Of a DNA stretch of 64,000 nucleotides, positions 20,040 through 24,793 are shown piece by piece (the stretch's first letter is position 1; the number at the start of each line of letters is the position of its first letter). The notes beneath the pieces were generated by a model. The model did not search any database, was not told the origin of the DNA, and saw only the letters and a list, made by a program, of their open reading frames with translations. The position numbers and the translations under genes are program-made. Origin of the DNA: Bacteroides sp. 214 (GTDB lineage Bacteria; Bacteroidota; Bacteroidia; Bacteroidales; Bacteroidaceae); assembly GCF_010501015.1 (NCBI RefSeq), contig NZ_QVML01000001.1, positions 247,845 to 311,844 on the forward strand, given 5' to 3'.

Positions 20040-20070
20040 TTTGGAAACTTGGAAATTATAGTTACATTTG
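20040..20070 (+). promoter_or_regulatory. Consensus Bacteroidota promoter, TTTG-N19-TACATTTG
   Basis: The -33 TTTG (20040-20043) and -7 TACATTTG (20063-20070) are separated by exactly 19 bp, matching the primary sigma factor consensus. It precedes the structured leader copy A. The second leader copy keeps the -7 (TACATTTG 20950-20957), with TTTT in place of TTTG at -33. Confidence 0.85.
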
Positions 20071-20311
20071 CGATGCTTGTTGCATTACAAGCGGACATAT
20101 TTTAAACATACGAAAGTGTTTAGCTTATTTCTCAAAAGGAAAATCTGGTAAATTTAACTTGGGAGAGAATAAGTCAACTTTTCGCATCATATCTATATGG
20201 TGCGGGCTGTTGCTTATTAATTCCCAAGGCCTTACCAGAGCCCTCCTTTTTTAATAAGTTTCAGACCCGCACTTTCCGCATTTAATAATTCTTCTTTGGG
20301 GTCGGGGAGGG
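20071..20311 (+). ncRNA. Structured leader RNA, copy A (H-type pseudoknot candidate)
   Basis: About 240 nt between the promoter and the start codon at 20329, repeated upstream of 21218. Helices visible: a paired block CTTATT(20124-20129)...AATAAG(20168-20173); hairpin GCATCATA/TATGGTGC (20184-20191 with 20196-20203); GTGCGGG (20200-20206) with CCCGCAC (20266-20272); S1 CTTATTAA (20213-20220) with TTAATAAG (20251-20258); S2 CCCTCC (20241-20246) with GGAGGG (20306-20311). S2 begins inside the S1 loop and pairs downstream of it, forming an H-type pseudoknot. Its 3' strand is the only purine-rich run near the start codon. Could be a riboswitch-like leader, a repeated small RNA, or a folded recombination site. 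Confidence 0.65.
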
Positions 20312-20328
20312 TAATTATACTTTATACT

Positions 20329-20871
20329 ATGGGATTTTTAGACAATGTTACAAACGAATTTGGTAAAAAAACAGGAAAGGCGATTGGTAATAAACTGTAT
20401 GGCAGGCATGCTGATGACGTTAGATTGGGTCAGCGAGTAGATGCTAATGTTAATTATGGTGCGGCAAATGTAAAACAAAGTGAGCCAGATTATGGTGCTA
20501 TAGAAAGGGAAAAACGAATAACAATGCAGCATGAACAAGATGCCAAATTTTTGAATGCAATTATCAACATCCAATTTAATCCACAAGACAAAGATGCCAT
20601 TATTACAGAATTAACGGCATTATCTTCGTATGTGGATTTGTGGATAAAAGAATCAAATCAAAACTTGAATGCAGCAAAATCAAAATTTGACGCAGGATTG
20701 GCAATGTTAAGGTCAATAGAACCAAATAACACGATGATTGCTTATTTTGAAGGCAAGAAAATTGAATGGCAAACTTTTATTGAACAACAAAAGAAGAAGA
20801 AACGTACTACTATTTTAGTTATTGCTGGTGTTTTGCTTGTGTTTGTTATAGTGTTAATCATATTTGCTTGA
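20329..20871 (+). CDS. Unknown 180-residue tail-anchored membrane protein
   Basis: I do not recognise a family. The start at 20329 (MGFLDNVTNEFG) is chosen over the in-frame TTG at 20296 because the latter lies inside the structured leader. The N-terminal 60 residues are polar with Gly/Lys; residues ~65-155 are predicted helical, ending EQQKKKKR; residues ~162-180 form one hydrophobic segment (TILVIAGVLLVFVIVLIIFA), leaving almost nothing on the far side, so it looks like a C-terminally anchored cytoplasmic protein. It carries the same leader as the GIY-YIG gene downstream, which suggests common control with the SPFH/GYF cluster. Confidence 0.75.
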   Translation: MGFLDNVTNEFGKKTGKAIGNKLYGRHADDVRLGQRVDANVNYGAANVKQSEPDYGAIEREKRITMQHEQDAKFLNAIINIQFNPQDKDAIITELTALSSYVDLWIKESNQNLNAAKSKFDAGLAMLRSIEPNNTMIAYFEGKKIEWQTFIEQQKKKKRTTILVIAGVLLVFVIVLIIFA

Positions 20872-20949
20872 TTCTTGGAGTTCTAGCTATTGATAGTTAT
20901 AAAATGATTTTGTAAAAAGCAGTAGCTTTTAGGCTTTAAGAATAATGGT

Positions 20950-20957
20950 TACATTTG
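20950..20957 (+). promoter_or_regulatory. -7 promoter element upstream of leader copy B
   Basis: TACATTTG followed by TG, at the same offset from the leader as in copy A. A TTTT stands 19 bp upstream in place of the -33 TTTG. It would drive the GIY-YIG/TerB/SPFH/GYF genes. Confidence 0.7.
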
Positions 20958-21201
20958 TGATGCTTGTTGCATTATTAGCAAACATATTTTAAGTACACGA
21001 AAGTGTTTAGCTTATTTCTCAAAGGGAAAATCTGGTAAATTTAACTTGGAAGAGAATAAGTCAACTTTTCGCATCATATCTATATGGTGCGGGCTGTTGC
21101 TTATTTAATTCCAAGGCCTTACCAGAGCCCTCTTCTTTAAATAAGTTTCAGACCCGCACTTTCTGCATTTAGTAATTCTTCTTTGGGGTCGGAGAAGAGG
21201 G
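20958..21201 (+). ncRNA. Structured leader RNA, copy B (H-type pseudoknot candidate)
   Basis: Direct repeat of copy A, closely conserved for ~245 nt up to the purine-rich strand. The differences preserve pairing: S1 is CTTATTTAA (21100-21108) with TTAAATAAG (21137-21145), lengthened by one base on both sides; S2 is CCCTCTTCT (21128-21136) with AGAAGAGGG (21193-21201), longer and different in sequence from copy A yet fully complementary. GTGCGGG (21087-21093)/CCCGCAC (21153-21159) is unchanged. The element ends 16 nt before the ATG at 21218 (17 nt in copy A). The 346-bp gap 20872-21217 holds nothing else. Confidence 0.7.
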
Positions 21202-21217
21202 ATTAAACAATCAAGTC

Positions 21218-21940
21218 ATGAGGATAGAAAAGTTTTCGCAAGCTATTTGCGAACGTATAGGATGTTATGTTTACATTCTAATTGACCCGAGGGATAAAAC
21301 TGTGTTTTATGTTGGGAAAGGAGTAGCTAATCGTGTGTTTGACCATGTAGGATGTGCTTTGGATAGTGAAACCGAGAATGACAAGTACAACCTAATACGA
21401 GAAATAACTTCGGAGGGTTATTGCGTTGAACATCTGATTCTTAGACACGGAATTGACGAAAAAACAGCTCTTGAAATTGAAAGTTGCGTAATTGATTTAT
21501 TCGATTACCTCTATATAATTACTGGAAAACCCTCTCTTACTAACATCGTTAAAGGGCATAATTCATGGACGAGAGGACTAAAAACTGTTGATGAAATAAT
21601 TCAACTCTACGATGCTAAGCCCGTTACCCTGGAAGAACCCTGCATAATTATTAATATAAACAGGAAATATGATGCACACATGGATGACGAAAAATTGTAT
21701 GAAGCAACTCGTGCATCTTGGGTACTTGGCCCAAAAAGAAATAAAGCCAAATACGTAGTGGCTGCTTACAGGGGGTTGGTAAGAGAAATTTATGAAATAG
21801 AGAGTTGGAATCCTATATATGACCGTTGGGAATTCTTTGGGAAAATAGCAGACGAACCTATCAGAAGCAAATATAAAAATGGTTCTCTCGAAAAATACAT
21901 CAAAAAGGGAGGTCAGAACCCTATACGATATTCTTTTTAA
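21218..21940 (+). CDS. GIY-YIG nuclease-domain protein (LEM-3-like / COG3680 type)
   Basis: A 240-residue soluble protein. The N-terminal GIY-YIG fold is visible: Y17-V-Y19-I, Y31-V-G33-K-G, Arg39 in the NRVFDH helix, and a conserved Glu in the EIESCVIDLF helix (~88). The C-terminal ~110 residues (IININRKYDAHMDDEKLYEATRASW onward) form a second domain often paired with this nuclease class. The catalytic set seems intact, so DNA or RNA cleavage is plausible; a role in defence or stress is inference. It is preceded by leader copy B and followed after 49 bp by the TerB-like gene. Confidence 0.8.
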   Translation: MRIEKFSQAICERIGCYVYILIDPRDKTVFYVGKGVANRVFDHVGCALDSETENDKYNLIREITSEGYCVEHLILRHGIDEKTALEIESCVIDLFDYLYIITGKPSLTNIVKGHNSWTRGLKTVDEIIQLYDAKPVTLEEPCIIININRKYDAHMDDEKLYEATRASWVLGPKRNKAKYVVAAYRGLVREIYEIESWNPIYDRWEFFGKIADEPIRSKYKNGSLEKYIKKGGQNPIRYSF

Positions 21941-21989: not shown

Positions 21990-22712
21990 ATGTACAATGA
22001 ACAATTAGAAAACCTAATCAATGCGGCACTAAGTGACGGTGAATTGACGGAGAAAGAAAAACAAGTCCTTTTTAGAAAGGCCGAGTCGTTTGGAATTGAC
22101 CTTGACGAGTTTGAAATGGTATTGGATGCCAGATTATACGAGAAGCAGCAAGCCATGAAGCAGAATTCTACTAGCCAGTCTTCGGCTGCTCCGAAATCCA
22201 ACAAAATAGGAGATGTGAAAAAATGTCCTGCTTGCGGTGCAATACTGCAATCTTTTTCAATTCAGTGTTCAGATTGTGGCTATAATTTTTCAAATATTGA
22301 AGCCAATACTTCTATTCAAAAATTATTTCAAATGCTTAATGAGGCGGAAAATGAGAGAAAAGATGCTGGAATGTCTGTTGGCAAAGTAATTGGAAAAGTA
22401 TTTGCTCAACATTTCGGCTTGAGCAGTGGAGATAAGGTTCAATCTAAAAAAATTACCATTATTTCTAATTTTCCCATACCAAATACTAAAGAAGATATTT
22501 TAGAATTCTTATCTCTTGCATATCCGAAAGCTCAATTAAAAGGAAGCTTCCTAACAAGAAATAATCCAGAGAATGTTGATCATAATGCGTTCGTAGCCGT
22601 TTGGAGAGCAAAATGCGAACAAATTATTATGAAAGCTAGATTCTCGATGAAAGATGACAAAAAATTATTAGATGAGATAAATCGATATGCTGAAGAATTA
22701 AATATAAAATAA
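21990..22712 (+). CDS. TerB-like / zinc-ribbon protein of unknown function
   Basis: A 240-residue protein. Residues ~3-48 resemble a short TerB-like helical domain (NAALSDGELTEKEKQVLFRKAESFGIDLDEFE). A rubredoxin-like zinc ribbon follows: Cys79-x2-Cys82-x10-Cys93-x2-Cys96. The C-terminal ~140 residues are mixed alpha/beta (IISNFPIPNTKEDILEFLSLAYPKA) without a family I can name. It ends 6 bp before the SPFH gene, so it is almost certainly co-translated with it. In such clusters zinc-ribbon proteins are thought to act as adaptors for SPFH scaffolds; that is inference here. Confidence 0.72.
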   Translation: MYNEQLENLINAALSDGELTEKEKQVLFRKAESFGIDLDEFEMVLDARLYEKQQAMKQNSTSQSSAAPKSNKIGDVKKCPACGAILQSFSIQCSDCGYNFSNIEANTSIQKLFQMLNEAENERKDAGMSVGKVIGKVFAQHFGLSSGDKVQSKKITIISNFPIPNTKEDILEFLSLAYPKAQLKGSFLTRNNPENVDHNAFVAVWRAKCEQIIMKARFSMKDDKKLLDEINRYAEELNIK

Positions 22713-22718
22713 TTAAGC

Positions 22719-24044
22719 ATGGCATTATTTGGTAAAAAATCAGAAGGCGGGTTAATGGATGTAATCCGCTGTGATGAGCAAGAATACCTTGTATGGAAAT
22801 GGAGACCTTCGGGGGAAGCTAATTCTACAAAAAGGGAAAATGCAATTCGCTACGGAAGTAGTTTGCGTGTAAAAGATGGTGAGTTGGCTGTATTTGTTTA
22901 TAAACAAGATGATGGCTTGCAGGATTTTATAATAGGTCCTTATGACCAAACTATAAAAACGGCAAACTTTCCAGTCCTGGCAAATATAGTTGGGACTGCT
23001 TTTGGAGGTGCATCTCCTTTTCAGGCAGAAGTATACTTCATCAACCTTTCGGGTAATGTTCAAATACGGTTCGGTGTTCCGTTTTTTGATGTTTTCGATC
23101 CAAGATTTCTTGATTTTGCTGTTCCTGTTGCTGTTAGAGGCACAATTACATTTAATCTTACAGATTATAAGGGTTTCATTAAATTGAATAGATTGATAAA
23201 CTTCAATCTGGAAGACTTTAACAAACAGATAAAGGATGCGGTAACTAAATACGTAAAGGGAGTTGTTACCAATATTCCTTCTGACAATGGCATACCTGTA
23301 CTTCAGATGGAGCGCAAGATTCTAGAAATAAATGAAATAGTTGGTTCATATCTGAAATCTCGCTTGGAGATGGATTTCGGGGTTAATATGAAAGGACTGG
23401 ATTTAGCCTCTATAGATGTAGATAAGGAAAGCGAAGGATATGCAGAGCTACGAAAAGTAACAGCCGAACAGACCACAAAAACAACTGTTGCTCAAGCCGA
23501 AGTAAACATAAAGAACATGCAGGATACACAAAGTATTAATGCTCAAAATATGGAGGAAACTTTGCGTATTCAAAGAGAAGAGGCTCAGCGAGCTCAAAAA
23601 TTACAGACCGAAACCAACTTTATGGGTGCTCACTCTCTGAATCAACAGACCGAAGTACTTAAAACCGCTGCAAGTAGTCTTGGAAGTATGGGTGCAATGG
23701 ATGGCGGCGGTGGTATGAATCCGGCAGGTATGATGACTGGCATGATGATGGGGGGTGCTATGGGAACTCAAATGGCAGGTATGATGAACCAGATGGGACA
23801 AAATATGACACAGCAACAAAACATGCCTCCACCTCCGCCACAAATAGCCTATAGCATTTCTGTCAATGGGCAAGCTTCTGGTCCATATAATTGGAGTCAA
23901 TTGGAACAGTTAGTACAATCTGGTCAATTAATGCAGAATACTTATGTATGGAAAGCAGGAATGTCTGGATGGGAACTTGCTGGCAATGTTGTGGAACTAT
24001 CGCCATTATTTGCTACTGTTCCGCCACCACCGCCTGTACTATAA
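22719..24044 (+). CDS. SPFH-domain (virion-core/YdjI-like) protein with C-terminal GYF_2 domain
   Basis: A 441-residue protein. Residues ~5-250 form a COG4260-type SPFH domain (MALFGKKSEGGLMDVIRCD start; the VPVAVRGTITFNL strand); ~245-310 is a coiled coil rich in Glu/Gln/Ala; ~320-370 is Gly/Met-rich low complexity; a PPPPP linker leads to a GYF_2 domain (~375-430, with SGPYNWSQLEQLVQSGQL and VWKAGMSGWELA); the C-terminus is again Pro-rich. SPFH proteins assemble membrane-associated rings or scaffolds; GYF_2 domains bind proline-rich peptides, so the protein could self-associate or recruit the GYF protein encoded next. No transmembrane helix is evident. Confidence 0.85.
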   Translation: MALFGKKSEGGLMDVIRCDEQEYLVWKWRPSGEANSTKRENAIRYGSSLRVKDGELAVFVYKQDDGLQDFIIGPYDQTIKTANFPVLANIVGTAFGGASPFQAEVYFINLSGNVQIRFGVPFFDVFDPRFLDFAVPVAVRGTITFNLTDYKGFIKLNRLINFNLEDFNKQIKDAVTKYVKGVVTNIPSDNGIPVLQMERKILEINEIVGSYLKSRLEMDFGVNMKGLDLASIDVDKESEGYAELRKVTAEQTTKTTVAQAEVNIKNMQDTQSINAQNMEETLRIQREEAQRAQKLQTETNFMGAHSLNQQTEVLKTAASSLGSMGAMDGGGGMNPAGMMTGMMMGGAMGTQMAGMMNQMGQNMTQQQNMPPPPPQIAYSISVNGQASGPYNWSQLEQLVQSGQLMQNTYVWKAGMSGWELAGNVVELSPLFATVPPPPPVL

Positions 24045-24095
24045 CATGAAAAAATAAAACGAGTAATTTATAAAAACAGAATACTATAAAATATT

Positions 24096-24452
24096 ATGAA
24101 TGAGAATAGTTTCCTCTCAATAGAAAAGTTGGTTGAATTTGGTATGAGTCTTGCTGTTGCACGTCAAATGGTAAAGAGCATGAACCAGACCATTACTGGT
24201 ATGCATATTCCGGGAGCAATGAATCCTATGCAGTCAACTACTCCGCAGTTCTACTATGCAATTATTGACAATACACAGTCTGGTCCGTATTCTGAGCAAG
24301 AATTATCGCGGCTTATCTTGGATAAAAAAGTTCATAAAGAAACATATATCTGGAAGCCGGGAATGAGTAAGTGGGATGTGGCAGAAAATATTCCCGAAGT
24401 TCTAAAGCTTGTTATCTTATCGCCTCCTCCTTTTAATAATAATAGCCTATGA
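24096..24452 (+). CDS. Small GYF_2-domain protein
   Basis: A 118-residue protein. Residues ~1-30 are helical (SIEKLVEFGMSLAVARQMVKSM), and ~53-102 form a GYF_2 domain with the hallmark SGPYSEQELSRLI and YIWKPGMSKWDVAE, very similar to the C-terminal domain of the preceding SPFH protein. The C-terminus is Pro-rich (SPPPF). It follows the SPFH gene by 51 bp and overlaps the next gene by four bases (ATGA). The shared domain suggests duplication of the SPFH tail into a free adaptor. Confidence 0.8.
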   Translation: MNENSFLSIEKLVEFGMSLAVARQMVKSMNQTITGMHIPGAMNPMQSTTPQFYYAIIDNTQSGPYSEQELSRLILDKKVHKETYIWKPGMSKWDVAENIPEVLKLVILSPPPFNNNSL

Positions 24453-24793
24453 AACCTAACATACCAAATTTAGCTATTGCAACTTTTATTAGCTTATTAA
24501 TCTCTTATGCATTGTACAGTTGGCATAAAGGAGACAATCAGATGTTGCTAAGTATAGGGAGCTTTTTATCATTGGGATTAATGTTGAATATGCTTATTGG
24601 CATTAACTTTAATATGGGGAGAACCTCCGTCAATATTAAAGTCGTGGCAGGGGTGTTTTTTGTAGTGTCGTTGGCCTGTAACCTCTTTTTTACCTTTATT
24701 CGCTTCTCTGTTTCGACTTACGTTATTGTCAATGGGTTGATTTTGCTTCTTTTCATTTTTATAGTCTATTCTTTATACAAATCTCGCCAATAA
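24449..24793 (+). CDS. Small integral membrane protein, four predicted TM helices
   Basis: A 114-residue hydrophobic protein with helices near residues 5-23, 29-50, 60-82 and 88-110. I do not recognise a family. It overlaps the GYF_2 gene by ATGA, which implies translational coupling, and it ends the cluster. It is a plausible membrane partner for the SPFH/GYF proteins. Confidence 0.7.
   Translation: MKPNIPNLAIATFISLLISYALYSWHKGDNQMLLSIGSFLSLGLMLNMLIGINFNMGRTSVNIKVVAGVFFVVSLACNLFFTFIRFSVSTYVIVNGLILLLFIFIVYSLYKSRQ

Follow-up and report, generated by a model that had tools for sequence, protein, structure and literature searches.

A predicted structured leader RNA family of Bacteroidales that is absent from Rfam 15

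Members of the Bacteroidales make up a major part of the bacteria in the human gut. To our knowledge, few classes of cis-regulatory RNA are known in this order. In Bacteroides thetaiotaomicron, 13.5% of mRNAs have 5′ untranslated regions (UTRs) longer than 100 nt, and about 2% of these carry a predicted riboswitch, according to one report (PMC7366714). Several described systems come close to the element. Bacteroidales-1, Bacteroides-1 and Bacteroid-trp, candidate structured RNAs from these bacteria, have been entered in Rfam (PMC2864571). A survey of the human microbiome lists HMP2_4078 and HMP2_4205, palindromic candidate RNAs of Bacteroidetes of 109 and 132 bp (PMC8040213). The leader of the roc mRNA of B. 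thetaiotaomicron controls protein output (PMC10294740). Recombinase-associated interbacterial defence arrays (rAID) of Bacteroidales are described as a tyrosine recombinase together with short genes in one orientation, between which conserved motifs lie (PMC12247911).

The window analysed here, a stretch of 64,000 nucleotides from Bacteroides sp. 214, holds two direct repeats of 255 nt each (20054-20308 and 20941-21195), which are 92% identical without gaps at a spacing of 887. An earlier note, made from the letters alone, had described them as diverged direct repeats that run from a −7 box to 16–17 nt before a start codon, in front of unrelated proteins, and this description holds in each respect. 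The TACATTTG box lies near the start of both repeats (20063 in copy 1, 20950 in copy 2). The final base of the helix that the note called S2 lies 17 nt (copy 1) and 16 nt (copy 2) 5′ of the ATGs at 20329 and 21218. One of the two proteins has no Pfam match and the other is of the LEM-3-like GIY-YIG type. The features of the two copies, all on the + strand, are:

20063-20070, +: copy 1 −7 promoter box TACATTTG (TAnnTTTG), from the sequence and the strict box found family-wide
20075-20092, +: copy 1 P0, a small putative 5′ hairpin (GCTTGT/ACAAGC) near the expected transcript start, from the sequence; similar hairpins were seen by eye in some homologues
20112-20276, +: copy 1 structured core (P1 to P1′), from homologues and a match of covariance model R1 (G000:C11:267956-268121, E 5.5e-25)
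20124-20173, +: copy 1 hairpin P2, strands 20124-20133/20165-20173, from covariation, the alignment-free test and the sequence
20134-20140, 20141-20155 and 20158-20164, +: contents of the copy 1 P2 loop, namely the P5 5′ strand, hairpin P2b and the P6 5′ strand
20184-20203, +: copy 1 putative hairpin P8, its last bases overlapping the P4 5′ strand, from the sequence and as a stem in the terminator scan
20200-20272, +: copy 1 hairpin P4, strands 20200-20220/20251-20272, the inner part being S1 of the earlier note
20222-20228, 20228-20242 and 20244-20250, +: contents of the copy 1 P4 loop, namely the P6 3′ strand, hairpin P4b and the P5 3′ strand
20145-20151 with 20232-20238, +: copy 1 P3, the P2b loop CTGGTAA pairing with the P4b loop TTACCAG, from family covariation
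20289-20310, +: copy 1 putative P7 hairpin before the start codon, from the sequence and family tests, of which the earlier ones were weak or negative
20298-20303 with 20264-20268, +: copy 1 P7 loop GGGGTC and the complementary GACCC of P4, from the sequence
20329-20871, +: gene behind copy 1, 180 aa with a C-terminal hydrophobic segment, no Pfam family
20950-20957, +: copy 2 −7 promoter box TACATTTG, from the sequence
20999-21163, +: copy 2 structured core, R1 match G000:C11:268843-269008 (E 9.5e-27)
21011-21060, +: copy 2 hairpin P2, with the P5 5′ strand at 21021-21026 and P2b at 21028-21042, from the sequence
21045-21051, +: copy 2 P6 5′ strand, compensated CTTGGAA, from the sequence
21087-21159, +: copy 2 hairpin P4, the inner part being S1 of the earlier note, from the sequence
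21109-21115, 21115-21129 and 21133-21138, +: contents of the copy 2 P4 loop, namely the P6 3′ strand, P4b and the P5 3′ strand
21176-21197, +: copy 2 putative P7 hairpin, its loop GGGGTC (21185-21190) complementary to GACCC (21151-21155)
21218-21940, +: gene behind copy 2, LEM-3-like GIY-YIG domain protein of 240 aa (PF22945, E 1e-12)

When 157 genomes of the genus were searched, the gene behind copy 1 had a match in the window's own genome only. Four proteins are encoded 3′ of the pair (21990-24793): one that is zinc-ribbon/TerB-like on weak matches, an SPFH (Band_7_1) protein that also carries a GYF_2 domain, another GYF_2 protein, and one of 114 aa for which Pfam gave no match.

Both copies and 18 homologues were combined in alignment A2, which comprises 20 of 26 sequences (L010, L018, L019, L023, L026 and L027 were left out as near-duplicates, broken or diverged). 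The covariance model R1, with 173 positions and 32 pairs, was built on A2. A DNA search had found matches in 19 of the 158 genomes of the genus, with 70–82% identity outside the window's own genome. R1 matched 114 of these 158 genomes and 231 of 399 genomes of the family, in 24 of 30 genera (E up to 0.01 in both searches), as well as 107 of 393 genomes of the order, in 69 of 206 genera (E up to 0.001); the own genome is included in all these counts. In a phylum-wide sample, 11 of 296 genomes were matched (E up to 1e-4). As no more than a few top candidates were scored in each genome in the large searches, the numbers per genome are minimum values; the highest, in the genus search, was at least 14. 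Parabacteroides distasonis has two matches (E 4.8e-26 and 3.2e-6) and Bacteroides finegoldii three (E 1.8e-12, 1.9e-12 and 5.4e-5). Six copies were found in the own genome; four have diverged strongly, scoring 70.6 to 40.5 bits where the others score 151–161. Two diverged copies (G000:C22:464862 and C22:484274; L083 and L084) precede similar genes, which from inspection by eye we take to be RibD/DHFR-type reductases. Exact-pattern scans yielded a single locus in the genome collection and another in the viral collection, neither matched by the covariance model; two further scans of the viral collection gave 0 and 2 loci, and both loci were confirmed by the model.

In all, 170 copies were collected, of which 161 are distinct. 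A global alignment of 157 of them, in which the outer arms are misaligned, served for anchors only, and 56 copies with less than 72% identity to each other were kept as representatives. Alignment A4 consists of 94 matches (92 distinct rows; four are opposite-strand matches) that were aligned by a model holding the pairs of P1, P2 and P4 only. The copies are scattered across genomes and diverged in sequence. Tandem pairs of leaders were seen in L184 (1501-2057, about 176 nt apart) and in G591:C706 (9000-9372, about 49 nt apart). Rfam 15 gave no match at the gathering cut-off in the whole window, in keeping with the earlier note, which had recognised no named class in the element and had proposed this comparison. 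With E up to 5, the 1401 bases around the copies matched just two snoRNA models, below the cut-off and inside the first gene, and 20 loci carrying the element gave nothing but a tRNA. Judged by sequence comparison, the two window copies are members of a large family of predicted structured RNAs of Bacteroidales that is absent from Rfam 15.

A strict TAnnTTTG box was found at most 70 nt upstream in 146 of the 161 distinct copies, compared with 13.3 ± 3.2 in shuffles. In 140 of the 161 copies, an ATG-started open reading frame (ORF) of at least 45 aa begins no more than 150 nt past the core; the same test gave 27 of 136 for ORFs that diverge on the opposite side, and it was positive for about half of random positions in these loci. 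The gap between core and start codon has a median of about 53 nt, with quartiles of about 47–60. The recurring layout is a Bacteroides-type promoter, a core of approximately 160–220 nt, then a start codon. Promoter box, gene side and start-codon distance thus support the proposal of a cis-acting element in mRNA leaders, and it is almost certain that a conserved RNA fold sits in these leaders.

At least six T in the 8 nt directly behind the core are present in 45 of the 56 representatives, and farther on in 3 of 56. In some members, such a U-rich stretch could attenuate transcription or form the end of a free RNA. The element might accordingly be an independent structured noncoding RNA terminating at the U-run, the gene being reached by read-through alone, and its own promoter box, as well as the 21 copies of 161 with no such ORF close behind, would suit such an RNA. 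It is nevertheless an improbable explanation: by eye, the window copies have no strong U-run and nor do several of the sequences closest to them; the distances from the core to the start codon and to the P7 site are fairly constant; and a close ORF on the same strand is present in 140 of the 161 copies.

Downstream ORFs numbered 121 after removal of similar ones, and 119 were searched, two short doubtful ones being left out. Over these 119 proteins, 76 Pfam families were found, none with more than five members, including TPR, BspA-type LRR, WG repeats, zinc ribbons and restriction-nuclease-like proteins. The absence of a common family or pathway, which is unusual for a metabolite riboswitch, counts against a riboswitch serving one metabolic pathway. 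Among downstream proteins with 100 aa or more, 114 are distinct, and 68 of these have a signal-peptide- or membrane-like start by a simple rule of our own; for the other ORFs in these loci that do not overlap, the figure is 93 of 292. A lipobox is present in 29 of the 114 and 23 of the 292.

Upstream neighbours were readable at 104 of 166 places, and 80 proteins were searched, the 81 ORFs collected including one duplicate entry. Raw counts without background were 10 WYL-domain, 7 Phage_integrase, 7 AraC-type, 3 Resolvase and 3 Phage_CRI proteins; integrase, resolvase and replication genes are among them. Ten of the 80 belong to one sequence cluster (L020, L025, L026, L055-L058, L074, L101 and L105), and the leaders at these loci appear related by eye. 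Ten upstream neighbours have a WYL domain (L025 was confirmed singly), and such proteins may be partners of the leader. In two records of B. finegoldii, a gene of the recombinase family lies directly upstream of the leader (L209, 1705-2425; L212, 1710-2345). The gene in L209 encodes a Resolvase domain, and a 23-nt inverted repeat, 83% complementary, separates it from the leader, possibly marking an invertible promoter; L212 has no repeat of such size.

In the segments L216-L219, a Phage_integrase gene and a gene for a small Lys-rich protein precede the leader, and lipoprotein or other cargo genes follow. These segments resemble small integrative elements; L218 continues with an HTH_17 protein and a gene for which Pfam gave no match. 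The Phage_integrase gene upstream of the leader in these four of six larger segments recalls the rAID arrays, where a conserved sequence also lies near a recombinase and accessory genes in Bacteroidales (PMC12247911). Identity of the element with the conserved intergenic motif of these arrays is highly improbable, as L216-L219 have one sense-strand leader each, whereas rAID are described there as having one motif per gene, and copies elsewhere are scattered.

A site of single-stranded DNA that folds, or a palindromic mobile repeat, used in either case to recombine gene cassettes, would also account for 7 Phage_integrase and 3 Resolvase proteins among 80 upstream neighbours (again without a background count), and for copies that flank a gene found in one of 157 genomes. 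The element is indeed a long imperfect inverted repeat, which is why the reverse strand scores weakly in some members. The folded-DNA alternative is made less likely by the element's own promoter, the gene starting on one side behind the core and the narrow spread of the distance to the ATG. Wobble pairs also outnumber A–C mismatches on the sense strand, by 89 to 36 in A2 and by 143 to 41 for P5, P2b and P4b in the first 90 rows of A4. As the ratio is 32 to 22 for P5 alone, this excess gives modest support for RNA over DNA, and promoter, gene side and start-codon distance outweigh it. Near-identical dispersed copies with no fixed relation to genes, expected of a transposon end or MITE, were not found among the six copies of the own genome, four of which are far diverged, and the position is before genes. 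With copies scattered and diverged as they are, a DNA site is very unlikely.

The fold of the core was assessed on both alignments. The 52 pairs proposed reach 90.4% pairing in A2 and show 103 two-sided changes, whereas controls with slid partners are 39–53% paired. None of 500 shuffles reached the paired share, the two-sided count or the covariation score, and one reached the number of pair types. Because these pairs were found by reading the same sequences, a further check was needed. In A4, helices P5, P2b, P3 and P4b, which lie outside the aligning model and whose register is the best diagonal picked on A4 itself, reach 90.2% pairing. Their two-sided cells number 378 (shuffles: 126), and their covariation score is 0.515 (shuffles: 0.179). 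The loop-loop helix P3 is paired in 99.7% of the cells, with changes on both sides in six of its seven pairs. The view of the earlier note that selection acts on the fold is supported by this covariation.

An alignment-free test on the 56 representatives ranked, for each strand, the pairing with its true partner, a mean rank of 0.5 being chance. The ranks were 0.058 for P5, 0.066 for P6, 0.18 for P2, 0.22 for P3, 0.23 for the inner and 0.26 for the basal part of P4. Little signal was obtained for P2b (0.37), P4b (0.67) and P1 (0.36). The strands of P2b and P4b are nearly constant or too short, which explains their weak showing; a second partner for the 5′ end, between P2 and P8, was likewise weak (0.38). 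P5 and P6 sit in the P2 and P4 hairpin loops, with mean uninterrupted runs of 7.7 and 8.7 bp, compared with 4.6 and 6.4 for mismatched partners. P6, which had escaped the earlier description, carries a compensatory change between the copies, from CTTGGGA/TCCCAAG in copy 1 to CTTGGAA/TTCCAAG in copy 2.

A fully nested rod, in which the P2 5′ arm pairs with the P4 3′ arm and vice versa, was rejected, its cognate ranks (0.40 and 0.27) being weaker than those of P2 (0.18) and inner P4 (0.23); this pairing is kept solely as possible branch migration. The helices P2, P5, P2b, P6, P4b and P4 of copy 1 adjoin almost without gaps, and two four-way junctions joined by P5 and P6 may be formed. More speculatively, the element could represent a new, abundant class of sensory RNA with a natural double-crossover core, in which P5 and P6 join the junctions P2-P5-P4-P6 and P5-P2b-P6-P4b, kissing loops clamp them and one junction is able to branch-migrate, and which gives accessory and mobile cargo genes of Bacteroidales a common regulatory input. 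This picture is tentative and has the odds against it.

The pseudoknot first proposed for the repeats was of the H type, formed by two helices, S1 and S2. Pseudoknotting itself is borne out, and S1 (CTTATTAA/TTAATAAG versus CTTATTTAA/TTAAATAAG) is as described, being the inner part of P4 and covarying across the family; the crossing pairs are those of P5, P6 and the loop-loop helix P3. The letters of S2 are present (20241-20246/20306-20311 and 21128-21136/21193-21201), but its pairing is not conserved in the homologues: runs of at least 6 bp occur in 24 of the 56 representatives, against 25.6 expected from mismatched partners (rank 0.479). With no cognate excess, the S2 pseudoknot was dropped. 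Its strands look complementary owing to their composition, one being pyrimidine-rich and the other purine-rich, and in our reading they belong to the 3′ strand of P5 and to the P7 hairpin.

A second pairing of the P4 3′ strand was examined. This strand is complementary to the P7 site, upstream of the start codon, with runs of at least 6 bp in 41 of 56 representatives (22 expected; mean rank 0.27) and of at least 7 bp in 26 of 56 (11.8 expected). The window of this positive test was chosen after weak and negative ones. A first test on a wider region gave a mean rank of 0.37, and minimum-energy folding predicted P7 hairpins in 34 of 56, against 34.8 in shuffles, with a loop rank of 0.44. In the 41 representatives, the stem formed by the flanks of the P7 site is stabler with its own partner (−5.5 versus −3.3 kcal/mol). 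The end of the site lies a median of 23 nt before the ATG (quartiles 19–25.5) in the 35 of 41 with a close ORF; three of these 35 distances are negative, the site overlapping the ATG side. In six members (L021, L053, L062, L063, L065 and L067), no obvious P7 was seen by eye in leaders that precede similar membrane-AraC-like genes; L021, L053, L062 and L065 have an AraC-type gene upstream as well (L053 by Pfam).

The pairings of P4 and P7 are mutually exclusive, as expected of a switch. Each copy is probably a cis-acting structured 5′ leader with a riboswitch-like architecture, in which the balance of P4 and P7 would set translation initiation. The comparison of homologues establishes the family, its promoter box, its position and its helices, and supports both alternative pairings, the second less firmly; that the region is transcribed and that it switches, in which direction and upon which trigger, we infer. 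Transcription would start just 3′ of the TAnnTTTG box. The RNA would then fold so that the P2 and P4 hairpin loops are joined by P5, P6 and the loop-loop helix P3 into a compact pseudoknotted core. The P4 3′ strand could swap to the P7 loop, which lies some 23 nt upstream of the start codon and excludes the P4 pairing, and a cellular signal (a small molecule, a protein or an RNA) would shift the balance between the two and so set translation initiation. Where a U-run follows the core directly, transcription elongation would perhaps be affected too. Switching through P4 and P7 is somewhat favoured, at best to the same degree as this reading as a whole.

A leader that does not switch could instead be a constitutive module for translation or mRNA stability, or recruit an RNA-binding protein, and in this way allow the independent expression of accessory and cargo genes. 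The great diversity of the downstream genes fits this explanation, as do their excess of exported or membrane-like starts and lipoboxes, the integrase, resolvase and replication genes upstream and the position of the leader after an integrase gene in four segments. Two exclusive pairings of one strand, each favoured between cognate partners, are hard to understand without a conformational change, and a leader without switching is on balance rather unlikely.

If the preferred reading of a switching leader is true, the leader, found in 114 of the 158 genomes of the genus, would give exported proteins, lipoproteins and the cargo of mobile elements a layer of control in common. Its well-defined fold would also be a target for structure determination and for finding the signal. 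The widespread structured leader RNA, which Rfam 15 does not hold, is real; the earlier note was right about its kind and wrong about the second helix.

Comparison with the known systems gives the following picture. Bacteroidales-1, Bacteroides-1 and Bacteroid-trp differ from the element in that none of them was matched in the window or the 20 element loci at the gathering cut-off, or in the 1401 bases around the copies with E up to 5. The roc leader was dropped as the same element, since at 54 nt, the length given in PMC10294740, it is too short for the core. A full-text literature search returned no title or abstract opening that describes the element, and the survey PMC8040213 may hold an unnamed partial entry. 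From riboswitches and other cis-regulatory leader RNAs the element differs in lacking a common pathway among its genes, an Rfam match and a known ligand; judging from the Rfam scans, its fold also appears to differ from those of the known classes. It resembles them in its position in the 5′ UTR, which the sequence indicates through the promoter box (146 of 161) and the close ORF (140 of 161). It further resembles them in a conserved, aptamer-like fold of several helices with a loop-loop contact, seen in the covariation of A2 and A4 and in the alignment-free test, and in a putative pairing that would compete near the start of translation.
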